Positions 34,403 through 48,568 of a DNA stretch of 64,000 bases are shown in pieces. Within the stretch, counting starts at the first letter, position 1; each line of letters opens with the position of its first letter. The DNA is from Komagataeibacter melaceti (GTDB lineage: Bacteria; Pseudomonadota; Alphaproteobacteria; Acetobacterales; Acetobacteraceae). The notes beneath the pieces are model-generated. The model saw nothing but the letters and a program-made list of their open reading frames with translations. It was not told where the DNA came from and made no database searches. The translations under genes were made by a program, and so were the position numbers. The stretch is from assembly GCF_003403295.1 (NCBI RefSeq), contig NZ_QUWV01000003.1, forward strand, positions 1 to 64,000, in the 5' to 3' direction.

Positions 34403-35552
34403 CTATGGCTCGGAGTTCAGTGACTCGATGAGCGAATAGACCGCCTTCACCCGGGCTTCATTCGGATGATTTTTGTTGGCCAGGACAACTATGCCGATAT
34501 TTTTACTGGGTAGCATCGCAATATAGCCACCAAACCCGTTCGTCGAGCCGGTCTTGTTCAGGAGAACATTTTTCTGTGGGGCAAGGGCCGGGCTCAACTT
34601 CTTTTCTGGCTGTGGTTTCATAATGAAATCATAGCCATTGCCCAGTGTTATCTTCTGTAAGCTGGCAGGCCAGTCGTACTGTTCCCATATCATATCCTGC
34701 GTGAAAAATGCTGTTGTGTACTGCCCTTCATGGGTTCTGGTGACTGCCTTATGCAATTCTTCCGAGGCTTTCCCGCACCCCATTTCCACGTCGAGAACCT
34801 TAAGTATGTCGCTGGCGCTCGATTTTACGCCATAGGCTTCCTCGGCCAAAACGCCAGGGTTCATGCGGATTGGTGCATTGGTCTTTCGGTCGTATCCCCA
34901 GGCGTAGTGAGCCATTTCGCTCGGTGGCACATCAATCCACGTATGCCGTAGCCCGAACGCAGGAAAAAAGCACGTTTTGCACGACCTGCTTATAGTCCGA
35001 GCCCATGGCCTTACCAGTGATGTAGCCGAGCATTCCGATGCTGATGTTGGAATAGCTTCGTGTTCCCGGTTGCAGCGGGCGCCAGTTCTTCAGCCAACTA
35101 ACCAGTCCATTGACGTCGGTTATGCTGTCTGGCACCTGCAAGGGCAGTCCTCCCGAATGGTGCGTTGCCAGATCCATGAGGGTCAGTCGGTCACCTATTG
35201 AGCAGGTGTCCGCACAGACATGATGTGCCACAGTGTCATCGAGGCTGAGTTTACCGCGATCCTCTGCCAATGCTGCAAGCGTCACATTGAAAATTTTACT
35301 CATTGAGCCAAGCTCAAACAGAGTGTCAGGCGTCACAAGGCGGTTATCGGCTCGTGATGCTACTCCAGCGGCATAAAAGTCATGTTTGCCGTTTCGGGTG
35401 ATGCCGACAATAAGGCCGGGTATGTCGTATTCCTTCATCACGGGTTGGAATGCATCTCGTGCCTGTTCGGTCAAACTGGCAGCTTTTGCAGGCGATGTCA
35501 TTGAAGAGATCATAGCAACGGAGAGCACCACACGGTACAATCGCATATTCAT
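34403..35552 (-). pseudogene. ampC: Class C beta-lactamase (AmpC-like), broken by a frameshift
   Basis: The N-terminal part (MNMRLYRVVLSVAMISSM, signal peptide to about residue 24) carries the catalytic Ser-x-x-Lys in LGSMSKIFN and the YSN motif (TRSYSNISIGML), and runs into a stop near 34932. The rest lies in another frame: PPSEMAHYAWGYDRKT, then the KTG triad KTGSTNGFGGY. Removing one base from the six-A tract at 34964-34969 restores NVLFPAFGLRHTWIDVPPSE with no gap, giving a normal 380-residue enzyme. All three catalytic motifs are intact, so the break is recent or a sequencing error. Confidence 0.8.
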
Positions 35553-35919: not shown

Positions 35920-36378
35920 TTAATCATGCATTTCAACGAGAAATTCCCGCAGGGCCGGTTCAAAATTCTGATTTTCGTGTCCGGGCCTGGTAAGCTTAAG
36001 GAGCGCGAAGCGCTGTAGGGCCGACAGATGTCCCCATTGTTCGGGCGTGGGTGCCTCTACCCTACAGGATTGCGCTTTCAGCCTGATCGCATCGGGCACG
36101 CCACCAGCCAGTTGCCATGGTTCGGTTCGGGCGGGTGGAAGTAGTTTTGGCTCTTCCCCTGCCCGGGTCCTGATCAGGTGTAGGAGGAACGACTGGTACG
36201 CCGCCTGTTCCGGTGGCGTGGTGGCGGGACGGTTCACCAGGGCCTGCCTGTCGTGCGGGGTGAAACGGCTCCACTGGCGCAGGCTGAGTTTTACGCCGCA
36301 CAGGTCCAGTTTCATGCGTACGATCATAGGAACGCAGCGTAACGACAGGGCAAAATCCATTTCGAAATTGAACAGCAT
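35920..36378 (-). CDS. Nitrate reductase associated protein
   Basis: A 152-residue protein of the nitrate-reductase-associated family, known from cyanobacterial and proteobacterial nas operons. The N-terminal signature FNFEMDFALSLRCVPMIVRMKLDLCGVKLSLRQW is clear; the rest is helical (TPEQWGHLSALQRFALLKLT). It is the last gene of the nitrate operon, 21 bases after nasS. The biochemical function is unclear. Confidence 0.82.
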   Translation of the reverse strand: MLFNFEMDFALSLRCVPMIVRMKLDLCGVKLSLRQWSRFTPHDRQALVNRPATTPPEQAAYQSFLLHLIRTRAGEEPKLLPPARTEPWQLAGGVPDAIRLKAQSCRVEAPTPEQWGHLSALQRFALLKLTRPGHENQNFEPALREFLVEMHD

Positions 36379-36399
36379 GGTTCCCCTCCCCTGCGCGGT

Positions 36400-37395
36400 T
36401 CACTGAGACCGTGCGCAGGCAGAAGAAGGATCGGCGGGCATGGGACCGATCCAGCGCATGAGCATCTGGTGTTCGGCAGTGTCCACCCATCCCAGCGCCG
36501 TCATATCGTTTATGATCCAGTCAAGGTCAGACGGCAGCAGGCAGCCCCCCGCAAAGGTCACGCATTCGCGGGCATCCCCACCGGGCAGGATGGCGTCCGT
36601 CGCCGCAAGGGGGAGTGCCAGCCCGCCTTCCGCAACGGGGGTTGCCAGCACGCGCGCAATATCCGCACGGTGGTCCGGCTGCTGGCAGAATGCAATCGCA
36701 TCCCGCAGGGCGTGCGACATGCGGCGGACCGTCGCATCGCATGCCAGCAGTTTTCCCGATGCGACAATGATCTTTTCGACATGACCGGGCAGGACAGTGG
36801 CTGATCCGCCCACGCGAAAGGCAAGCCCGAGTTGTTCCGCCTCGGTGCCCCATGGCGGCCCGACACAGCCGCCATCAATCGCGTTTTCCGCCAGCGCATG
36901 GATCATGTCGGTCGGGGGCATGACGGACAGGTCGATTTCGTCCTCCATGCTGACGTCAATCATCTTGAGGAAACGCCGGAGGATGAGGAGATGGGTGGAA
37001 TACATATGCACGATGGCGAGACGCGGCTTCCGCCCGATGGTCGTGGACCACTGGTCAAAGGCCTGCCGCCCGTGGGAGCCGGCATTCCACGCCCCTTCCA
37101 CCGGGTTGACACCGCGCAGCATGATCGTATTGCCACCCCGGCTGATCCGGCCCAGCGCACGTAGCCCCGTATCATGCCCGCGCCGCCCGAGCGCGGTCAT
37201 CATGGCCAGCGGCGCGAAAATGACGGCGGCATCCAGCCGGTTCCATGCCAGACCATCGGCGATGTTGGCCCAGGATGGAGAAACGACGATCTCGATTTCC
37301 AGACCATGACGGGCAAAAATACCCTGCTGCCGCCCCATGATTACCGGTGCGCTGTCAGCCAGCTTCAGCACGCCAATCCGTAACGGTGTATTCAT
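36400..37395 (-). CDS. nasS: NasS-like nitrate/nitrite sensor (NrtA/CmpA family)
   Basis: A 331-residue periplasmic-binding-protein fold without a signal peptide, so cytoplasmic. The start is MNTPLRIGVLKLADSAPVIM. Family segments are GLEIEIVVSPSWANIADGL, MYSTHLLILRRFLK, and the ligand region DGGCVGPPWGTEAEQLG. NasS binds nitrate/nitrite and, when empty, sequesters the antiterminator NasT. It overlaps nasT by ATGA, which supports a stoichiometric pair. Confidence 0.88.
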   Translation of the reverse strand: MNTPLRIGVLKLADSAPVIMGRQQGIFARHGLEIEIVVSPSWANIADGLAWNRLDAAVIFAPLAMMTALGRRGHDTGLRALGRISRGGNTIMLRGVNPVEGAWNAGSHGRQAFDQWSTTIGRKPRLAIVHMYSTHLLILRRFLKMIDVSMEDEIDLSVMPPTDMIHALAENAIDGGCVGPPWGTEAEQLGLAFRVGGSATVLPGHVEKIIVASGKLLACDATVRRMSHALRDAIAFCQQPDHRADIARVLATPVAEGGLALPLAATDAILPGGDARECVTFAGGCLLPSDLDWIINDMTALGWVDTAEHQMLMRWIGPMPADPSSACARSQ

Positions 37396-38003
37396 GGTGT
37401 CTCATCCTTTTTCTGCGATGCCAGATACTCCCCGGCAACAGCCGCAATGCGACGCGATGTCTGCATGGCCCGGCGCTGGAGCCATCTATAGGCCTGCGCT
37501 TCGCTGGTTTTTTCATTTTTCATGAAACATCTCTTGGCCTGATCGATAATCTTCCGCTCGGCAAGGACACGCTGCGCTTCAGTCAGTTCGTCGCGAGTAC
37601 GGCGGAAGCGGGCATACAGCGCGATGGCGGCACGCAGCAGTGGCTTGACATCCCGGGGCAGCGCCTCAAGCACGTTGTAGGAACATATGCCCGTATCGAA
37701 GGCCGTTTCCATCAGTTCAACATCGTCCTCATCCACAAACAGGGCGACCGGCCGTTCCTGCGCCGAACAGGACAGGGCACGAATGCTGTCCAGTGCGTCA
37801 CGGTCGGCCCTGTTCATGTCGACCAGCACGACATCGGGCCGACAGGCCCGCACGGCATCGACCAGCGCCGTGCCGGGGGGAACGGTCAGGACATCCAGCG
37901 ACGCATCGGCGTGCAGTGTCTCCGACAGGGCATGGCCCCGGCGGGGATTTTCGTCCGCGACCAGTACTCTCAGGCGCGTACCGGGAGCCATGTCCTCACG
38001 CAT
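37392..38003 (-). CDS. nasT: NasT-like ANTAR antiterminator
   Basis: A 203-residue response-regulator-like protein. The receiver part (RLRVLVADENPRRGHALSE, VVLVDMNRADRDALDSI) is followed by the ANTAR RNA-binding domain, about residues 125-190, with the marks LAERKIIDQAKRCFMKNEK and SEAQAYRWLQRRAM. It should bind paired leader hairpins and prevent termination when NasS releases it. The start shares one base with the nitrate reductase stop. Confidence 0.9.
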   Translation of the reverse strand: MREDMAPGTRLRVLVADENPRRGHALSETLHADASLDVLTVPPGTALVDAVRACRPDVVLVDMNRADRDALDSIRALSCSAQERPVALFVDEDDVELMETAFDTGICSYNVLEALPRDVKPLLRAAIALYARFRRTRDELTEAQRVLAERKIIDQAKRCFMKNEKTSEAQAYRWLQRRAMQTSRRIAAVAGEYLASQKKDETP

Positions 38004-41000
38004 CAGTAGACATCACGCAGATAGCGGCCTTCACGAGTGAGGTTACTTACGAATGCATCTGCATCGCCGGATGACAGGTCGCCGTGACGGGCAACAATCC
38101 GGCGTAGTGCCGCATCGACATCCCGCGCCATACGGGTCGCATCCCCGCATACATAGACATAGGCCCCATCGCGCAGCCAGTCCCACAATTCGCTCCCTGC
38201 GGCTTCCATCCGGTCCTGCACGTACACCCGCTCGGACTGATCGCGTGAAAAGGCAGTATCGAGGCGCGTCAGCACCCCGTCGGACAGGAAGGCATGCAGT
38301 TCATCATGATAGTAGAAGCCTTCCGCCGCGTGGCGTTCGCCGAAAAACAGCCAGTTCCGACCCGTAGACTGCCGCGCTGCGCGTTCCTGCAGGAACCCGC
38401 GGAATGGCGCGATGCCAGTGCCGGGGCCGATCATGATCATGGCGGCACCATCATCCGCCGGTAGCCGGAAATGCGTCGTGGGCTGGATGAAAACCGGCAC
38501 GTCTGCCCCATTGTCCAGCCCTGCCAGCCAGTTCGAGCATATGCCCGGCCATGGCGTAAGGCTGACCCCTACTGTCAGTTCCACCACCCGCCCGGATGCC
38601 TGTGGCGAGGACGCAATCGAGTAAAGCCGCGGCTGCATGCGCCGGAACAGCCCCGGTATGTCCTGCGCGGAGACCGAAAGGGATGCGTCTTTCAGCAGGT
38701 CAGGCAGGAAACCCGGCGCGCAGCCCCCCAGTGCCTGCAGCATGGCCGGGTTGGGGCGGCTCAGGTCAAAATGGCGTGTGAGGGCTTCGTGCAGCCCCAC
38801 CGTTCCGCAGCCGCGCAGCACGATGGGCGTATCTTCCGGCAGGCGCAGCGCGCGCAGGGCCAACTCCACATGGGCTGCCGGGTTGCTGGGCCATATGCCC
38901 AGTGCGTCCCCGGGAACCCAGTTCAGTTCCGTTTTGCTTACATCCAGACCGATGCGCCGTGTGTCCCTGTCGTAGCCTGCGGCGCACAGGCGTTCGTTGA
39001 TGGACAGGCGGGCCATGACGGGGGCCTCCCGCGTTCCGCAAACCGGGGGCGATGATGTACCCACCAGCGCGGGCGGGGCGGGCATTGCAGCCTGACCACC
39101 GCTTTTTATCTGCGCAAGGGCTGCCAGCATGGGGCCCCGCCATGCTTCCACTGTATCCTCAAAATCAGGTTCGCAATCCACGCGTTCCACGAATGGCGTT
39201 GCCCCCAGTTCCCGCAGGCGTCCATCCAGCGCGCGGCCGAAGCCGCAGAAACTGGCATACGAGGAATCCCCCAGCGCCAGCACGGCGAATGTCAGGTCGG
39301 GCATGGGGGCCTGACGTTCGCGCAGCATGTTCCAGAATGGAGCAGCACAGTCTGGCGGGTCGCCATCACCGAAAGTGGACACCACGAACAGCGCCGGACC
39401 CGCAATAGGTGTGTCCGCATCAAATGCGTCAAGGCATTTTCCCTCTGCCGTATGGCCTGCCTCGCGCAGCCAGCCAACGATCGTGGCCGCCAGACCTTCC
39501 GCACGCCCTGTCTGGGATGCCCACCATACGTTGATACCCGGCGTGGCGGCAGCGGGTGAGGCCCCGGTTCCCTCTCCCGGCTGTATGCGGCTGTACAGGC
39601 CTGCCAGGATACCGCTGATGCGCGCGTGCGCCTGTGCTGGCAGCGGTGCCGATGCGGGCAGCACGGGTACCTCACCCGCACCCGGCGGGGCCATTTCCAG
39701 ACCGTCGAGGAACCCGGACAGCCATGCCCGTCCCTCATCGGACAGGGTTGCGGCAACGGACTGCCCCGGCGGCTCCAGACCGAGATGGCTGGTAAGGGCG
39801 CGCAGCATCATGGCGGACTCTCCTTTCCTGACTGGTTCCTCATCATCGGCGGCCCGGCCTGCAGCCTGTTCTACCTGCTCCAGCGCCACCGCGCAGAGTT
39901 TGAAGCCGGGTTGTAGCGAAATCGGGTCAACAGCATCTGGTGTGACGGAATTGACCGTAAGGTCCGGCCCGAAGCGGTCATTCCAGTGGAACGGGGCAAA
40001 GCAGGTTCCGGGCCTTACCCGCGCGGAGATCTGAACCGGCAGGATGATCTGCCCCCGCCGTGACGTGATCCTTACGCGATCATCCTGCGCCAGGCCAAGC
40101 GCATGGGCGTCAGGCGGGGCAATTTCCACAAATGGGCCGGGGTTCAGGCGGTTCAGGCTGTCCACGCGCCCGGTCTTGGTCAGCGTATGCCACTGGTGCT
40201 GCAGTCGGCCGCTGTTCAGCACGAAGGGAAAATCCTCGTCCGGCCATTCATCGGGCCGCATCCATGGCCGGGCAAAAAAGACCCCCTTCCCGTCCGACGT
40301 GGCGAAGACAGGGCCGGTCCCGTCAGGAGACAGGTAACGGATCGGGTGCCGGTCCTGCGTATCGCCGGCAGGCGCGGGCCACTGCACCGGCCCGTTGCGC
40401 AGCCGCGCGTGGCTGACGCCTGCAATGTCATAGCCGGTTTTCGGGTTGCTGAACCGGCTGGCCTCGGCAAACACTTCGGCGGCGGATGTGAAGGCAAAAT
40501 CCTTCCCATACCCCATGGCGCGCGCCACGCGGGCGATGATGTCCCAGTCGGGCAGCGCTTCACCCGGCGGTGGGACGGCCTTGCGGGCCAGTGTCATGGT
40601 GCGGTCGGAATTGACCTGTACGCCGTCCCCTTCGGCCCACAGGGCGGCGGGCAGCACGATATCGGCAAAGCGCGTCGTCTCGCTATCCACGAACGCATCC
40701 TGCACGATCACGCATTCGGCGGCTTCCAGCGCCCGGACCACATGGCGCCGATTGGCAACGGTGGCGACGGGGTTGGTGCAGATGACCCAGCATGCCCGGA
40801 TGTCACCGCGTTCCATTGCCTCGAACATGGCAATTACGCCGTTGCCCCCCGCGTCACGCAGGGTGCCGGGAGGGAGAGACCACTGTTCTTCCGTAAAGGC
40901 ACGATCAGCCGCCACCAGCGTGCTGCGCTGCCCCGGCAGGCCCGGCCCCATATAGCCCATTTCGCGCCCACCCATGGCATTGGGCTGCCCGGTCAGTGAA

Positions 41001-41983
41001 AACGGCCCGCTGCCGGGGCGGCAGATGGCACCGGTGGCAAGGTGCAGGTTACACAGCGCGTTGGTGTTCCATGTGCCGGCAACGCTCTGGTTCAGGCCCA
41101 TGGTCCACAGGCTCATCCACTCCCCGGCCTCCGCAATCCAGCGCGCGGCGGTCAGGATATCCTCGACCGGCAGGCCGGTGATTTCGGCCACGGTCCGGGG
41201 GGCGTATTCATCCACAAAGGGTTCCATTGCCTCCCACCCCGTTGTGTTCCGGGCGATGAAGTCCCTGTCTATCGCATCGTTTTTGATCAGGAGATGGAGC
41301 AGGCCGTTGAGCAGCGCCAGATCCGTGCCGGGGCGGATGGGTAGGTACAGGTCGGCCTTTTCCGCCGTGGCCGTCCGGCGTGGATCGACCACGATCAGCC
41401 GCGCCCCTGCCCGCTTGCGGTCCATCAGGCGCAGGAACAGGATCGGGTGGCAGTCGGCCATGTTGGCGCCAATGACGAAAAACAGGTCGGTGCAGTCGAA
41501 ATCCTCATAGCTGCCCGGCGGCGCGTCGGCACCAAGGGACAGCTTGTAGCCAGTGCCCGCCGCGGCCATGCACAGGCGGGAATTGGACTCGATATGCTGG
41601 CTGCGGACAAACCCCTTGGCCAGTTTGTTGATCAGGTACTGTGCTTCCAGCGACATCTGCCCCGATACGTAAAAGGCGATGGCGTCGGGTCCATGTTCAT
41701 CAAGGATGGCGCGCAGCCGTGCCGCCGTGGCGTCGATGGCCTGCTGCATGCCCGCAGGCGCAGCCGCTTCCCCGCGCCGGGGGCGGATGGCGGCATGGCG
41801 CAGGCGCTGGTCGGACAGGAGTGGCCGGTCGCACGAACTGCCCTTGGTGCACAGGCGTCCGCCATTTGCGGGATGTGCACCATCACCCCGCACCTTGGCA
41901 ATGCGGCCGTCTTCCACTTCCAGTATGACCCCACAGCCCACCCCGCAATAGGGGCAGACCGTGCGGATGTCCTCCCGCGCCAT
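38003..41983 (-). CDS. nasA: Assimilatory nitrate reductase fused to a sulfite-reductase-type flavoprotein
   Basis: A 1,326-residue bifunctional protein. Residues 1-700 are a molybdo-bis-MGD nitrate reductase with a 4Fe-4S site ([17 protein letters not shown], last Cys in LCTKGSSC), [14 protein letters not shown], and [20 protein letters not shown]. After a linker a flavodoxin domain ([16 protein letters not shown], near 817; FGDGDPP) and a FAD/NADPH domain ([39 protein letters not shown]) follow. Electrons from NADPH can thus reach the molybdenum site in one chain, replacing a separate NasB. The ATG at 41983 lies just after the nirBD stop; the upstream extension was rejected. Confidence 0.92.
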
Positions 41984-41987
41984 GGGA

Positions 41988-44885
41988 TCAGGCCGATACG
42001 GGTTCCGGCGTGGATGTAGCCGATCGGGCCCGGATCGCAACCTTGCCGTTTTCCAGGCGGGCGTCCCATGTCCGCAGCCGGACGGTGGGGTCCTCCAGAC
42101 ACTGCCCGTCCTCCAGGCGGAAATGCTGCTTGTACAGCGGCGAAGCCACCACCACCTGCCCCTTTAGGTCGCCCATGATGCCGCGCCCGATCACATTGGC
42201 GTTCGAGAATGGGTCATGGTTGTCGATCGCATAGACCTGCGCAGGCGCGTCCTGTGTTGCGGGCAGGTAGAACAGGGCAATCTGGCTGCCATCATGCCAG
42301 GCCACCACCCCCGATTTTGCCACCAGATCATCAAGTCCGCACAGTTCGGTCCAGTCCTGCGGGCCGGCCGGGGCCATGGTTTCGGGCAGGTTTTCGGCCG
42401 GACGGACCTGATCGCGCTCCGGTGTGGTGCGGATGTTCGGATCGGGGCGGCTGTCATTGACGAAGGTGCGGAACCGCTTGAGTTTTTCACGGTCCGTCAG
42501 CGCATCGCGCCATTCGCAGTGATAGTGGTCCACCACCATCTGCATCTGCCGTTCCAGTTCCGCGCAGATGCCAAGGCTGTCGTTTATGATCACATCCTTG
42601 AGGTAATCCAGTCCGCCTTCAAGGTTTTCACGCCAGACGGAGGTACGCTGCAGCTTGTCCGCCGTCCGGATATAGAACATCAGGAAGCGGTCGATATATT
42701 TCACCAGCGTTTCAGCGTCGAGATCGGTCGCAAACAGTTCCGCATGGCGCGGGCGCATGCCGCCATTGCCGCAAACGTACAGATTCCAGCCATTCTCGGT
42801 GGCGATCACCCCCACATCCTTGCTCTGTGCCTCTGCACATTCGCGGGTGCAGCCGGATACGGCGAATTTGAGCTTGTGCGGGGAGCGCAGGCCCTTGTAA
42901 CGGTTTTCCAGATCGAGCGCCTTGCCCACGCTGTCCTGCACGCCATAGCGGCACCATGTGCTGCCCACGCAGGATTTTACGGTCCGGGTGGATTTGCCAT
43001 AGGCCTGCCCGGTCTCGAACCCTGCTTCCAGCAGTTCGGCCCAGATTTCGGGCAACTGGTCCAGTTGCGCACCGAACAGATCGATACGCTGGCCGCCAGT
43101 GATCTTGGTATAGAGACCGTATTTCTTTGCCACCTGGCCCAGGACGATCAGTTTGTCCGGTGTGATCTCGCCACCCGCAATGCGGGGCACGACCGAATAG
43201 GTACCGTTTTTCTGCATGTTGGCCATGAACGTGTCGTTCGTGTCCTGTAGCGGAATATAGAGCGGGTCCGTAATCGGCTTGTTCCACGCTGATGCCAGGA
43301 TGGAACCGACAGCGGGCTTGCAGATATCGCAGCCCAGTCCACCATTGCCGTACCGGGCCATCAGGTCTTCAAAAGTCTGGATGCCATGCACGCGGACAAG
43401 GGAATACAGTTCCTGCCGCGTGTAGGAAAAATGTTCGCACAGGCTGTGATCCACAGTAATGCCACGCGCTTCGAGTTCGGTCTCGAACACGTTTTTAAGC
43501 AGCCCTGAACAGCCGCCACAGCCCGTGCTGGCCTTTGTCGACTGCTTCAGGGCGGCAATATCCGTACAACCTTCCTCAATGGAAGCGCAGATCGCCCCTT
43601 TCGTTACATTGTGGCACGAGCAGATCATGGCCGTATCGGGCAGTGCATCAGCGCCAAGCAGGTCTGCCCCCTCCCCGCGCGGCAGGATCAGTACTGCCGG
43701 ATCTGCCGGGGGTTTGATGGCGTTCTGTACATATTGCAGGATTGTGTCGTAATAGGCGTTATCCCCCACCAATACGGCCCCGAGCACACGGCTTCCATCT
43801 GCCGAGAGCACAAGGCGGCGGTAGGACCCGTCCACTTCCCCGATGAAGCGGTAGCTCCGGCTGCCGGGTGTCGCGCCATGTGCATCGCCGATCGAGCCGA
43901 CATCCACCCCCAGCAGCTTGAGCTTGGTGGACATGTCCGCCCCGGTAAAGGCGGCTTCTTCCCCCACCAGGGTGCATGCGAGCGTGCGCGCCATGGTGTA
44001 GCCCGGTGCCACCAGTCCGAACACCTGCCCGTTCCAGCACGCACATTCACCGATTGCATAGATTGCCGGGTCGGACGTACGGCATTGCCCGTCGATCACG
44101 ACGCCGCCGCGTGGCCCGATGGCAAGCCCGCAGTCACGCGCCAGCCTGTCCTGTGCGCGGATGCCGGCGGAAAAGACCACCAGATCGGTTTCAAGGAATG
44201 TGCCATCGGCAAAGACAAGACGGTGGCGGTGTGTCTCACCTGCGGTGATCTGCTGCGTAGCGTGGGATGTAAGCACCTCGATCCCCAGTGCCTCGATCCG
44301 CTGCTTCAGGGCCTGACCACCATCATCATCAAGCTGCACCGGCATGAGGCGCGGCGCGAATTCGACAACGGCCGTGGACAGGCCCAGCCCCGCCAGCGCG
44401 TTGGCCGCCTCCAGCCCCAGCAGGCCGCCGCCAATGACCACGCCGTGCGATGCGCCCTCTGCTGCGGCCCGGATCATGTCCAGATCATCCAGCGTGCGGT
44501 AGACCAGCCCCGCCGTGCCCGTATTGCCCGGAACCGGCGGCACGAAGGGCGTGGAACCGGTAGCCAGGATCAGCGTGTCGTAAGGCAGCGCGCCTTCAGC
44601 ACTTTCCACCATCCGGGCCGCGCGGTCGATACGTGTCACCCTGACGCCACGGTGCAGGGTCAGGCCGTGATGGGCATGGAAATCATCCACATGCAGGCGT
44701 AGCGCCAGCGCGTCGCGTCCGCTCATGTATTCGGTCAGGTGTACGCGGTCATAGGCATCGTGGAGTTCGTCACCAAAAATATGAATCGCGCAGTCCTCAT
44801 GCAGACCATGCGCTACAAGCTGTTCGGCACAGTAATGGCCAACCATACCGTTGCCGATGATGACGATGTTTCCCGTTCCGGTCAT
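41988..44885 (-). CDS. nirB: NirBD: fused assimilatory nitrite reductase
   Basis: A 965-residue siroheme enzyme reducing nitrite to ammonium with NAD(P)H. The FAD/NAD part ([17 protein letters not shown] from residue 5; [15 protein letters not shown]) leads to a BFD-like 2Fe-2S site ([19 protein letters not shown]). The siroheme/4Fe-4S core has Cys pairs in [11 protein letters not shown] and [11 protein letters not shown]. The last 110 residues ([27 protein letters not shown]) are the Rieske-like NirD subunit, lacking iron ligands as usual for NirD. The ATG at 44885 has AGGAG eight bases before it. The reductase fusion begins 4 bases later. Confidence 0.93.
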
Positions 44886-44914
44886 GTTCGTTTCTCCTGT
44901 CATACGCGCGGCAG

Positions 44915-46555
44915 TCAGAATTTGAATTCCATGGTCTGCATGTAGAAAGCCCCGTTCTTCGCCCCCGCACGGTGCATGCCCTGCGATGCGACGAAGCCTG
45001 CGATATCGTGCGTCCATGTCCAGTGGGGCGCAAAATTCCATGCAAGCTGTGTCTGGGGTGTGGTGCCAATGAACCCGCCCGACAGGCCGTTGCGCCAGCC
45101 ATAGATCTTGCCGGTGCCATACACCGCGTCCTGTGTGCTTTCGCGCCAGAAAACGGGGACATGCAGCTTGAGATGCAGGTTCGCCAGTGGCGCTGCCGTA
45201 ATGACCGGCCCGATGCCGACCAGGTTCTGTGATGTCAGGGCCAGTGTTACGTCATTATAATACGGCAGCGGGAAATAGGGCGTGGAAAACGTGCCGACCG
45301 CGCCGTCGCTGCTGTGATACGACCCGCCTGAAAACAGGTCGCCCTGCAGTGCGATGGATGGTTTCGCCTTCAGGCCCTTTGCCGTCCATCCCAGTGTCCC
45401 GTTGACGGCATAGGCCCGTACCGGGCGCGTTGCGCCCCCGTCAGCAGGACGGAATTCGCCGCCCTGAAACACGCCCGTCAGGCTGATATCGAAGGGACCG
45501 ACATTCCCCCACACGCGTGCGCCGATATTGTCGCGGCGGGTCGATCCGACCTGCGTACCCGTTGTGGTGGCGAGCGCCGCCGAGGCACCGTTGAACAGGT
45601 AGCCAATAAAGAACACATCGGCAAAAATCTGGCTTTTCTGCCCCATGACCGAAAACTTCGGCAGCGGCGTCGATGTATAGATACCATACATCCGGGCGTT
45701 GTAGTTCGTGCCATCGGCAAAGACATTGCGCGGCAGCTTGTTGGTCTGCATGAAGTCAAACAGATCGAGCCGGAAGGATTTCCATACCGCATAGCCACGA
45801 AATCCATCCCATGACTGCTGTGCATTGGTCAGGTCGCGCGCGGACTGCATGGCGACGGGGGCATCGAGAAAGATCTGGCGACCACCGATCACGCCCATCC
45901 GCGCCCCCAGCATCCTGCCTTTCATCTCCAGAATACCCTGCTGGAGATCCAGCCGTTCGCGCTGCACCCCGGTCTGGTAGCCGTAGTAGTTCGATCCCCC
46001 TGCTTCACCCCACAGGAACTCGGCATAGGCGCGGACATGCTCACCCAGATGCAGGTCAGCGCCATACTGGCTGCGCAGCAGAATGCGGCTGGCATTGGTC
46101 TTGCCTGCGGTTCCCATCAGCGGCTGGCTTTCAAAAGCATAGCGCAGCCGTTCTTCTCCGTTAATGGACAGCCAGATATCGCCTTTATCTGTCAGGGGAA
46201 TGTATTTCAGGCGGTTGAACCAGTCGTTTCGTCGCTGTTCAGGCGGCGTATTGACAATGTCGCTCCAGTCCTCGGCCCAGCGTGCCTGACCAAAACCACC
46301 CACGGTGCCGAACCCGGCTGCGGCTCCTTTGCCTGCGTTGAAGACACCCCAGTCAGGGCTGTGTGGCAGTGTCACGCGGTGGACGGCCGCCTTTTCAGGC
46401 GGGCGGGACGAGGTCGGGCGGATACTGGTTGCCATGACACCCGCAGCGGGCGCAGTGTCGGCATGGGCTGCATGCCCGGTACACAGGCTGGCAAGAATGG
46501 TGGTGAAGCCGACCGTCAGCGAAGCGGGCCGGAGCACGTCGGAAATACAGGTCAC
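44915..46555 (-). CDS. Alginate-export-family outer-membrane porin
   Basis: A 546-residue beta-barrel protein of the alginate_exp family. The GTG start at 46555 has AGGA nine bases before it and gives a compact signal peptide ending GHAAHA. An ATG at 46597 would overlap narK and lengthen the leader. The barrel contains LKYIPLTDKGDIWLSINGEERLRY, VIGGRQIFLDAP and many alternating strands, ending in MEFKF. Within the operon (22 bases after narK, 29 before nirBD) it is probably the outer-membrane entry for nitrate or nitrite. Confidence 0.82.
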   Translation of the reverse strand: MTCISDVLRPASLTVGFTTILASLCTGHAAHADTAPAAGVMATSIRPTSSRPPEKAAVHRVTLPHSPDWGVFNAGKGAAAGFGTVGGFGQARWAEDWSDIVNTPPEQRRNDWFNRLKYIPLTDKGDIWLSINGEERLRYAFESQPLMGTAGKTNASRILLRSQYGADLHLGEHVRAYAEFLWGEAGGSNYYGYQTGVQRERLDLQQGILEMKGRMLGARMGVIGGRQIFLDAPVAMQSARDLTNAQQSWDGFRGYAVWKSFRLDLFDFMQTNKLPRNVFADGTNYNARMYGIYTSTPLPKFSVMGQKSQIFADVFFIGYLFNGASAALATTTGTQVGSTRRDNIGARVWGNVGPFDISLTGVFQGGEFRPADGGATRPVRAYAVNGTLGWTAKGLKAKPSIALQGDLFSGGSYHSSDGAVGTFSTPYFPLPYYNDVTLALTSQNLVGIGPVITAAPLANLHLKLHVPVFWRESTQDAVYGTGKIYGWRNGLSGGFIGTTPQTQLAWNFAPHWTWTHDIAGFVASQGMHRAGAKNGAFYMQTMEFKF

Positions 46556-46577
46556 GGGATACGTTCCTGATCTGATA

Positions 46578-47819
46578 TTATGAAGAGGTGGCCGCATCGG
46601 CTTCAGCCGATATCCGGGGTCGTTCAGTCGCCCAGCGGCGGCGGCACACGCCAACACAGGCAAACGCTACCAGCGCAACCGCGGCAAAGCCCAGGAAGCC
46701 GGGACCGTAAGAGCCCGTGGCCTGCCGCGCGGCCCCCAGCGATGATGCGAGATAGAACCCGCCCACCCCGCCGCTCATACCCACCAGCCCGGTCAGGATA
46801 CCGACCCGGCTGGGAAAACGCGTGGGCACAAGCTGGAAGACCGCGCCATTGCCCAGACCAAGCACGACCATGCCCAGGAAAAAGGCCGGGAAAGCCAGCC
46901 AGATCGTAGGCAGGCCGAAGCCGATCACGGCAAAGATGGTGACGGCAAGCGCGAACAGGATGCTCAGGGCGCGCTCGCCCCCGATCCGGTCAGCCATGGC
47001 GCCCCCCAGCGGACGTACGAAGGACCCGACAAACACGACCAGCGCCGTGCAACTTCCGGCAATGGCGGGTGGCAGGCCGTACTGGTCGTTGAAATAGATG
47101 GTCAGGAACGAGGCAAGCCCCACAAAACCGCCGAATGTCACGCCATAAAAGAACATCAGCATCCAGCAGTCGCCGCTATGCAGGACAGGCAGCCAGGCCA
47201 CCAGCCCCCCGCTGGATCGGTGCCGCGGCGGTTCACTGGCCAGGAACACAAAGGCGACCAACACGGCGGTCAGCGGTAGCGTTGCCAGCCCCAGCACATT
47301 GACCCAGCCATAAAGCACGGCCAGGCCGGGCGCGAACAGCGAAGCGAGCGCCGTGCCCGAATTGCCGGCCCCGGCAATGCCCAGCGCCGTGCCCTGATAT
47401 TGTGGCGGATACCATGCAGAGGCGAGCGGCAGCGCAATAGCAAACGACGCCCCGGCAACACCAAGCACAAGTGCTACCCCGAACAGTGCGCCATAACTGT
47501 GTGGCGCGCTCAACCATGTCAGGAGCAACCCGGCGATCACAAGAATCTGGGCGCCTATAGCGACCCGGCGCGGCCCGAAGTGATCGACCAGCGCGCCAGC
47601 GAGCACACGCAGGAGGGCACCCGCCAGAACCGGGGTCGCGACCAGTAGCCCCTTCTGACCAGCATTCAGATGCAGGTCGTGAGCAATCGAAATTCCCAGC
47701 GGGCCAAGCAGGACCCACACCATGAACGAGACATCGAAGTACAGGAACGCCGCAAGAAGGGTACGCGGGTTTCCGGCTTTGAGGAATCCTTTGTCCACGT
47801 CATCGCATCCAGCCCCCAT
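46578..47819 (-). CDS. narK: NarK/NasA-family nitrate transporter (MFS, NNP)
   Basis: A 413-residue transporter with 12 predicted membrane segments. The nitrate signature regions are GAGNSGTALASLFAPGLA in TM5 and GLVGMSGGVGGFYLAS in TM11, and the TM2-3 loop reads GALVDHFGPRRVAIGA. It imports nitrate (and may exchange nitrite) as the first step of the operon. The ATG at 47819 is used although its ribosome site is weak; a GTG seven codons in is possible. It is the promoter-proximal gene. Confidence 0.9.
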   Translation of the reverse strand: MGAGCDDVDKGFLKAGNPRTLLAAFLYFDVSFMVWVLLGPLGISIAHDLHLNAGQKGLLVATPVLAGALLRVLAGALVDHFGPRRVAIGAQILVIAGLLLTWLSAPHSYGALFGVALVLGVAGASFAIALPLASAWYPPQYQGTALGIAGAGNSGTALASLFAPGLAVLYGWVNVLGLATLPLTAVLVAFVFLASEPPRHRSSGGLVAWLPVLHSGDCWMLMFFYGVTFGGFVGLASFLTIYFNDQYGLPPAIAGSCTALVVFVGSFVRPLGGAMADRIGGERALSILFALAVTIFAVIGFGLPTIWLAFPAFFLGMVVLGLGNGAVFQLVPTRFPSRVGILTGLVGMSGGVGGFYLASSLGAARQATGSYGPGFLGFAAVALVAFACVGVCRRRWATERPRISAEADAATSS

Positions 47820-48047
47820 CCATCAGATAGGATGGAGACGCCTTTTTCAGGCACGGAGACCATCGTTGGCCGTCCGGGTGTCGTCGTGATCGTTTGTGCC
47901 ATTTCCGCATCGTTCACCGCCATTGATGAACGCGCTTTTCAGGAAACCTGACTGCTGTTTATGTGCACCCGGAACAATGCGATGTCAAAACATTTTTCTC
48001 ATGCTGTCATTCATGCCACGGTTGAAAGATCAGGGTCCGATCGACAT
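47820..48047. other. Leader/promoter region of the nitrate operon
   Basis: This gap between narK and the IS remnant must hold the operon promoter and any NasT-responsive leader. On the minus strand GCC-TGAAAAA-GGC can form a small hairpin near 47840-47852. I cannot confirm a two-hairpin antiterminator. Confidence 0.35.
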
Positions 48048-48568
48048 TTAGGTCATCCAGATCATGGCTGAGACGAGGTGAACAAAGCCAAGGAAATGGA
48101 TGGTACGTCGGTCATATCGGGTAGCGAAGCGTCTGAAGTGCTTGAGGCGGTTGAAGCGCCGCTCGATACAATTGCGCAGCTTGTAGGCTCTGGTATCGTG
48201 CGGGATGATAATCTTGCGGGTGCGATTGCAAGGTATGACAGATTCTGCGCCCATCTGAGTGACAAGGGCGCGTAATGCATTGCTGTCATAGGTCTTGCCG
48301 ACAATAACAGAAGCTCCCTTCTGATCCGCGAGCAGAGCCTGCGCATGGGTGATATCGGCAACCTGTCCGGTTGTAATAATGAAGTGCAGCGGGGCGGCCA
48401 GCATATTATGGATCTTGGTCGTCAGATCACCTCTGGAGCGCCCCAGCGTCTGGTCCTTGCTCCCCCTTTTCCATTTGCATCCTTCTGAGGGGCGCGAACG
48501 ATCGTTGAATCGGACATCAGATACTGATTGTCCCGATTAGCCGTCAGCATCTCGAAAATCCTGAATGT
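48048..48568 (-). pseudogene. IS5-family (IS1031-like) transposase remnant
   Basis: The minus strand reads TFRIFEMLTANRDNQYLMSD STIVRAPQ, then, after a frameshift in the G-run before AGCAAGG, SKDQTLGRSRGDLTTKIHNM, and continues through FIITTGQVADITHAQALLAD, KTYDSNALRALVTQMGAESV and ERRFNRLKHFRRFATRYDRR to a normal end (HLVSAMIW). These are the DDE-containing central and C-terminal parts of IS5-type transposases. The N-terminus is missing. It lies upstream of the nitrate operon and could have altered its promoter. Confidence 0.8.

Follow-up and report, generated by a model that had tools for sequence, protein, structure and literature searches.

A 64,000-nucleotide stretch of Komagataeibacter melaceti DNA (RefSeq assembly GCF_003403295.1, contig NZ_QUWV01000003.1, positions 1 to 64,000; hereafter the window) carries a seven-gene unit for nitrate assimilation, with a structured leader RNA upstream of its first gene, narK. 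Our results point, with about as much weight for as against, to an assimilatory nitrate operon controlled by its own NasS–NasT regulators through this leader, at a step that would be translation or Rho-type termination and not intrinsic termination. All seven genes are on the minus strand, one behind the other from 47798 to 35920, and all are open:

46578..47798, minus strand: narK, NarK-family nitrate/nitrite transporter of the major facilitator superfamily (MFS), GTG start (Pfam/NCBIfam, relatives' starts)
44915..46597, minus strand: outer-membrane porin of the Alginate_exp family (Pfam; start codon uncertain)
41988..44885, minus strand: nirBD, NirB fused to NirD, a siroheme/4Fe-4S nitrite reductase (Pfam/NCBIfam)
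38003..41983, minus strand: nasC, assimilatory nitrate reductase (Mo-bis-PGD, 4Fe-4S) and CysJ-like flavodoxin-FAD-NAD(P) reductase in one frame (reductase–CysJ fusion; Pfam/NCBIfam)
37392..38003, minus strand: nasT, response-regulator-like and ANTAR RNA-binding protein (Pfam)
36400..37395, minus strand: nasS, NMT1_2 sensor-type protein (Pfam; no evident signal peptide by reading)
35920..36378, minus strand: narM, nitrate reductase maturation protein family (Nitr_red_assoc / TIGR02664; Pfam/NCBIfam)

A preliminary description of this DNA had reported a packed unit with this gene order, which was borne out: gaps are 29 bases or less, and there are three overlaps. The narK and porin genes overlap by 20 nt if the porin start is at 46597, which is uncertain; gaps of 29 nt (porin–nirBD) and 4 nt (nirBD–nasC) follow, then overlaps of 1 nt (nasC/nasT) and 4 nt (nasT/nasS), and a final gap of 21 nt (nasS–narM). 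The limits given there, 35920-47819, needed revision at the upstream end. Because relatives have a common (V/M)D start at the conserved GTG 47798, we take this codon, and not 47819, as the most likely start of narK, and the control region, which reaches to about 47990, had been left outside.

Leader and hairpins upstream of narK

The narK leader (47932-47812, minus strand) contains the hairpins P1 and P2, then P3 and P4, and a candidate promoter lies ahead of it:

47960..47988, minus strand: candidate promoter, TTGACA (47988-47983), 17-nt spacer, CACATA (47965-47960), found by reading
47911..47932, minus strand: P1, CGUUCAUC[AAUGGC]GGUGAACG, ANTAR-type hexaloop (A1, G4); 4/6 pairs changed on both sides
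47855..47875, minus strand: P2, GGACGGCC[AACGAU]GGUCUCC, one bulged C, ANTAR-type hexaloop (A1, G4); 6/7 pairs changed on both sides
47840..47852, minus strand: P3, GCCU-loop-AGGC; 2/4 pairs changed on both sides
47812..47839, minus strand: P4, 10 bp, abutting a Shine-Dalgarno-like UGGA (47811-47808) and ending 13 nt ahead of the start codon; supported by the arm-swap test

The leader thus has two hairpins with 6-nt loops bearing A1 and G4, the pattern of a dual-hexaloop ANTAR/NasT leader, and both positions are invariant in the hexaloops of P1 and P2 in all 19 aligned leaders. A search for such NasT-type hairpins was a check proposed in the preliminary description, and P1 and P2 answer it. 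The automatic hairpin finder overlooked P2 in the window and in six other rows because of a bulge or mismatch. In the parts of earlier papers that were available, to which all our citations refer, the ANTAR two-hairpin substrate likewise has two hairpins with A1/G4 hexaloops (Ramesh 2012, PMC3369931; EutV, PMC8934654), whereas the window leader differs in its long linker, its extra P3 and P4, and the lack of an overlapping intrinsic terminator.

The structure shows strong covariation. When hairpin arms were swapped between species groups, 7% of cross-group partners for P2 paired as strongly as the native ones. For P4, native arms gave −12.8 kcal/mol versus −4.8 kcal/mol across groups, 2% of cross-group partners were as strong, and the window's own hairpin had a z of −4.8; cross-group swapping alone lends no support to P3 (group mean 0.41). 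Being near-duplicates, L105 and L018 are in neither this test nor the 19-leader set (L and G numbers are our handles for loci and genomes). P4 ends 12–15 nt from the start codon in 19/19 leaders and 10–14 nt from it in 11/12 further rows; in the twelfth, L004, no start codon was obtained, and for L149 the place of P2 is a default setting. Between P4 and the start there is mostly UGGA, UAGG or a similar motif. The sequence of P4 differs between groups. The 36 matches, 35 of them distinct, comprise 31 primary leaders, with one nearly identical pair, and 5 internal leaders; 92.8% of their cells are paired and 17/22 pairs changed on both sides. The covariation score is 0.597, compared with 0.267 in shuffles (0/500 reached the real score), and slid controls stayed at or below 0.174.

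R1, a covariance model built from the 19 aligned leaders, matches 19 of 299 family genomes, once each save for G256, which has two matches. Within the genus, matches are strong in 7/19 genomes, the window's genome having a single one, and weak in 4 more; the weak ones (E 0.006–0.04) were taken as chance, as were a match at 17966 in L015 (E 0.014) and one in G168, where the 6 kb read held no nas gene.

Five loci have a further P1–P4 leader between the porin gene and nirBD. The carriers are Acetobacter suratthaniensis, A. okinawensis, A. lovaniensis, A. fabarum and G256, and the second NasT-type leader before nirBD lies at the following positions:

L008, 6310-6449
L009, 6868-7006
L019, 6868-7006
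L062, 6871-7009
L138, 4050-4188

After P4 of this second copy comes AGGA and then, 15–17 nt on, an ATG (chosen by eye) that opens a frame of 51–54 codons ending at or over the nirB start. The protein sequence of this frame is poorly kept. Four of the five carriers are close relatives, which makes about two independent observations.

Upstream of the leader, TTTTGAC is present in 15/18 rows compared and missing in L011, L016 and L017. The −10 half of the candidate promoter is weak, and our consensus scan did not list it. The spacer (window 47990-47960, minus strand, and relatives) has a stretch resembling TCGnATnnTTCCG, with a TCGGA-n4-TCCGA palindrome in L014; judged by its sequence, this stretch may be bound by a regulator.

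No Rfam family reaches its cutoff in the window. The narK RNA (RF03032) scores 21.1 bits there against a cutoff of 43.2 (E 0.03–0.07), and a larger search of 20 leader loci including that of the window, which was blind to weak matches, gave no narK RNA match at E ≤1. Matches to a glutamine riboswitch and a prion pseudoknot that appeared alongside were taken as chance. Like the window leader, RF03032 is a cis element before narK, and its consensus hexaloops are ANTAR-type (AACGGC, AAAGAC). It scores above cutoff before narK in 6/6 Pseudomonas nas loci, whose leaders have a strong hairpin with a U-run, whereas the window leader stays under cutoff. At L033, L042, L044, L063, L075 and L081 it precedes narK in all six and a nitrate reductase gene in three. 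Its consensus has a terminator-like hairpin over the second A1/G4 hexaloop, and on these sequence features RF03032 is probably a NasT antiterminator. The window leader appears to be an atypical version of a known nitrate-sensing switch, and no earlier description of this version was found in the open-licence literature searched.

Fusion enzymes, regulator genes and spread of the unit

The two fusion enzymes of the preliminary description are confirmed, with NirB and NirD in one frame and the molybdenum reductase in one frame with flavodoxin, FAD and NAD(P) domains. The flavin/NAD(P)H module that it placed within the nitrate reductase is present as judged from domain matches: Flavodoxin_1, FAD_binding_1 and NAD_binding_1 follow one another in that order (Pfam), with 449 bits against NCBIfam cysJ, under its cutoff of 668. 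In the reductase part, the Molybdop_Fe4S4, molybdopterin and dinucleotide-binding domains are all matched (Pfam). The NasC equivalog model of NCBIfam gives 449 bits where its cutoff is 1100, and the best-scoring NCBIfam model, formate dehydrogenase alpha, also falls short (536 versus 666). The NirD part of the window protein has two Cys, neither within CxH or CxxH as read from the translation, and therefore no classical Rieske ligands. NarK matches MFS_1, and its top NCBIfam model is the NarK family, at 258 bits under that model's cutoff of 312. NasT, the sole ANTAR protein found in the window's genome, pairs a receiver-like domain with ANTAR, and its gene adjoins and overlaps by 4 nt that of an NMT1-type sensor, the arrangement of a NasS–NasT regulator pair. 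NarM is above both cutoffs (TIGR02664, 167.5 versus 110 bits; PF09655, 173.9 versus 25 bits), and no second copy of its gene was found in the genome.

The species once called Gluconacetobacter oboediens and G. europaeus now belong to Komagataeibacter. Both fusions have been known in acetic acid bacteria since 2014, when Degli Esposti et al. described them there and in Beijerinckia (PMC4013037), with those two species included in Table 1. Their NirBD and NasA-CysJ clusters resemble the window in joining the two fusion enzymes to a transporter and a regulator; the sections seen speak of 'a regulator' only and do not describe a leader RNA, NarM or distal nasTS. The enzymes are thus known, and it is the leader variant that looks unreported in the open-licence literature searched.

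NirB and NirD share a frame in 20 of the 52 loci holding both, namely all 18 acetic-acid-bacterial and Beijerinckia loci and the enterobacterial L049 and L056, a count that omits eight loci of the window's genus and loci missing one of the two hits. The reductase–flavoprotein fusion is in one frame in 86/87 loci, a self-selected figure because the fusion served as query, and one that counts the locus of the window and those of its genus; the fusion extends to Pseudomonas, Paenibacillus and Streptomyces. Among named reductases, the Komagataeibacter xylinus enzyme is nearest (92% identity). Within the genus, the fusion enzyme occurs in 7/19 genomes, the window's own counted, and the other 12 have no strong match, although in one of them (G002) the leader, narK, porin and nirB start stand at a contig end. 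In a tree of 44 reductases (a quick one, with SH-aLRT support only and a midpoint root for drawing), acetic acid bacteria and Beijerinckia form one clade with support 100, in which Acetobacter species are scattered over several places and Komagataeibacter stands beside A. senegalensis and A. tropicalis. This scatter, together with patchy presence, suggests transfer between genera.

The unit also decays in some relatives. An IS5-family transposase gene sits between leader and narK in G011, nirB and nasC have frame breaks in G017, and the 16 kb read in G190 held only pieces of narK and nasS. The decaying copies include L104/L156, L108 and L139 (IS5-family insertion between leader and narK; nirB and nasC frame breaks; internal deletion from narK to nasS).

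In all 19 acetic-acid-bacterial and Beijerinckia loci (L004–L021 and L062, among 80 loci), nasC is followed by nasT and then nasS, and the same succession was found in 11/11 fused-enzyme loci of a second survey, which shares several genomes with the first. Given these counts, the arrangement is not due to chance, and placement of nasTS at the distal end is the norm in this clade. It is also seen outside the clade (L067), and in Acidocella (L025) the pair lies upstream. A narM gene comes after nasS in 5/19 clade loci, in 1/11 of the second survey and in the genus relatives L103, L104, L105 and L108 (the L008 sequence stops 145 bases beyond nasS).

The preliminary description made NasS and NasT levels depend on read-through, and no conserved internal promoter was seen before nasT: identity at four-fold sites is 0.38–0.54 in the last four windows of nasC versus a mean of 0.55, in a comparison over nine relatives that would miss a promoter private to the window strain. 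A consensus promoter scan gave 5 hits where 3.6 were expected; since it failed to pick up the probable true promoter, its lack of hits before nasT carries little weight. Because the end of nasC has no sign of a conserved hidden promoter, nasTS probably depends on the main promoter. The positive feedback that had been proposed from this layout is unsupported, however. NasS inactivates NasT and the two are made together, so their joint rise need not strengthen the response, and the loop could be positive, neutral or damping. The NasS–NasT system of Paracoccus denitrificans (PMC3795266, PMC5424462) is like that of the window in its ANTAR protein NasT, its nitrate sensor NasS and its leader hairpins before the structural genes. 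It differs in that nasTS, which has an NtrC site, is found upstream and is transcribed separately (PMC5424462), whereas the window's pair is near the end of the unit, and in having NasB, NasG and NasC as separate polypeptides, unlike the window's fusions.

Several observations concern the flanks and narM. Directly upstream of the operon promoter region lies an IS5-family transposase remnant (48048-48404, minus strand, 118 aa), which aligns with the C-terminal part of NF033580 at 100.8 bits (cutoff 110). Downstream of narM, a class C beta-lactamase-like gene is present as two neighbouring open reading frames (34403-34930 and 34932-35552, minus strand) that match separate halves of PF00144, by appearance a broken gene. 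In 13/19 Komagataeibacter genomes, whether or not they carry the nas operon, narM directly adjoins a gene for an FdhF/YdeP-like molybdoenzyme (loci L091, L092, L095, L097, L098 and L099), a pair missing from the window's genome; the family was confirmed by hidden Markov model in L091 only (912 versus 582 bits). NarM may serve enzymes other than nitrate reductase.

How the leader may act on narK

In the model that we propose, the porin and NarK would import nitrate, the reductase–CysJ fusion is predicted to turn it to nitrite with NAD(P)H, NirBD would make ammonium and NarM would aid assembly of the molybdoenzyme. In the absence of nitrate NasS would hold NasT; nitrate would free NasT, which is predicted to bind the hexaloops of P1 and P2 and so switch the unit on. 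The controlled step could be ribosome loading at narK next to P4, with polarity carrying the effect to the other genes of the unit, or it could be Rho-type termination. In Paracoccus, nitrate makes NasS release NasT, and NasT binds leader RNA (PMC3795266); by analogy, we infer the same chemistry for the window operon.

Read-through, the controlled step of the preliminary description, did not find support in the window leader, which lacks a hairpin with a U-tract even at a loose rule (hairpin ≤ −8 kcal/mol, 5 U in 8). A generic terminator scan also found nothing within it, and it has no intrinsic terminator with a 5′ arm overlapping P2, such as is present in most Pseudomonas controls. The loose rule flags 27/31 primary leaders, with no match in the window, L021, L152 or L143. 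In 14 of the 31 the matches are confined to narK itself, from about +47 onward (hairpins −8 to −16 kcal/mol), and in 13 (L005, L007, L008, L011, L012, L016, L017, L020, L062, L139, L144, L145 and L149) they lie also or only at or before +12, some of these being stable but long hairpins with poor U-tracts. A strict rule (≤ −15 kcal/mol, ≤46 nt, UUUU following immediately; tallied by eye from the loose list) singles out 3/31 clade primary leaders (L007, L139, L145) versus 13/17 Pseudomonas controls (3/6 narK and 10/11 nirB leaders). A scan with loops of at most 9 nt, a limit that missed the branched Pseudomonas narK terminators, found a terminator in 1/32 primary leaders (L149).

Ordinary NasT antitermination, in which the leader would stop transcription without nitrate and NasT on P1 and P2 would allow read-through, has been proposed for Paracoccus nasA and Pseudomonas nirB, and NasT/NasR systems are so named in the literature. 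The protein family and hexaloops in the window are the same as in those systems, and Pseudomonas nirB and narK leaders pair ANTAR-type hexaloops with a strong U-tract hairpin. Nevertheless, the window leader has no U-tract hairpin, and P2 has no exclusive pairing with a hairpin further downstream that is conserved across groups, which makes this explanation rather unlikely for the unit. Such exclusive pairing of P2 and P4, which would hide a terminator, did well in the window's own group (0.07) and had a group mean of 0.47; it was rejected as a general mechanism. An anti-Shine-Dalgarno switch, in which the 3′ arm of P2 or the P1–P2 linker would pair with the ribosome site, was suggested by folds of the leader tail and likewise rejected. 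When a longer leader was folded, the P2-arm pairing was nearly gone save in Gluconacetobacter L007 and L020 (L009 was not computed), native partners overall were no better than those of other groups, and for the linker pairing the native partner was best in L007, L010, L020 and L016 only.

We favour translation or Rho over intrinsic termination because the window leader has no U-tract terminator and P4 lies beside a start codon in both kinds of leader copy; control at one of these levels is at least as likely as read-through. In the literature, translational control was suggested in 2012 for ANTAR hits lacking terminators (PMC3369931), Mycobacterium is said to have stem-loops that cover ribosome sites (PMC8934654), and an extra, unexplained translational effect of nitrate is reported in Paracoccus (PMC5424462). 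A tentative extension, which we think rather less probable than the general model, is that NasT in acetic acid bacteria is a nitrate-released translational activator and not an antiterminator, with P4, a hairpin that evolves fast yet is kept throughout and abuts the narK ribosome site, as the off-switch, and that the A. fabarum group has duplicated this module before nirBD with its own start codon and a leader frame of 51–54 codons ending at nirB. Termination by Rho, with the untranslated leader as its target unless NasT is bound or narK is translated, would account for control of the whole seven-gene unit with no need of an intrinsic terminator, and P4 beside the start codon would couple translation and Rho. 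However, no sequence feature sets Rho apart from translational control, although no search aimed at Rho sites was made, and taken by itself Rho seems unlikely.

Several points weigh against the favoured model. In the cross-group test, which does recover P2 and P4 themselves, every alternative pairing of P2, or of the P1–P2 linker, to P4 or to the ribosome site failed (0.39–0.40 per leader; group means 0.47–0.58). The physical link from NasT binding to the start codon is thus missing, since no conserved alternative pairing was found. P4 is weak against shuffles (z > −1.5) in L008, L014, L016, L017, L149, L143, L144 and L152, with positive values in L149 and L143. The folded stretch stopped 8 nt before the start, so that gaps below 8 nt between P4 and start could not appear, and the position of P4 may be inherited rather than functional. 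In L007, L020, L139, L145 and L017, at least five U follow a hairpin that overlaps the narK start, just within narK, a possible terminator. The P1–P2 linker is about 37 nt in the window and about 100 in Beijerinckia, and a EutV leader whose linker was lengthened by 20 nt lost antitermination (PMC8934654). Finally, the covariation alignment was fitted to the model's structure, a lean in its favour, and the both-sides measure of 17/22, one of five, was reached by 22/500 shuffles.

It is also conceivable that the hairpins are vestigial and that the unit is constitutive or expressed from elsewhere. The genus may be losing the operon or never had it, with 12/19 genomes lacking a strong match to the fusion enzyme, and the insertion in G011 and the frame breaks in G017 fit such a picture. 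Yet every gene in the window is open, and the leader pairs are kept by compensating changes among relatives, which leaves this explanation very improbable.

If the leader does work without an intrinsic terminator, it would provide a well-conserved test case for ANTAR control via translation or Rho, in a one-regulator, mostly one-target system found in genera employed to make vinegar and bacterial cellulose.

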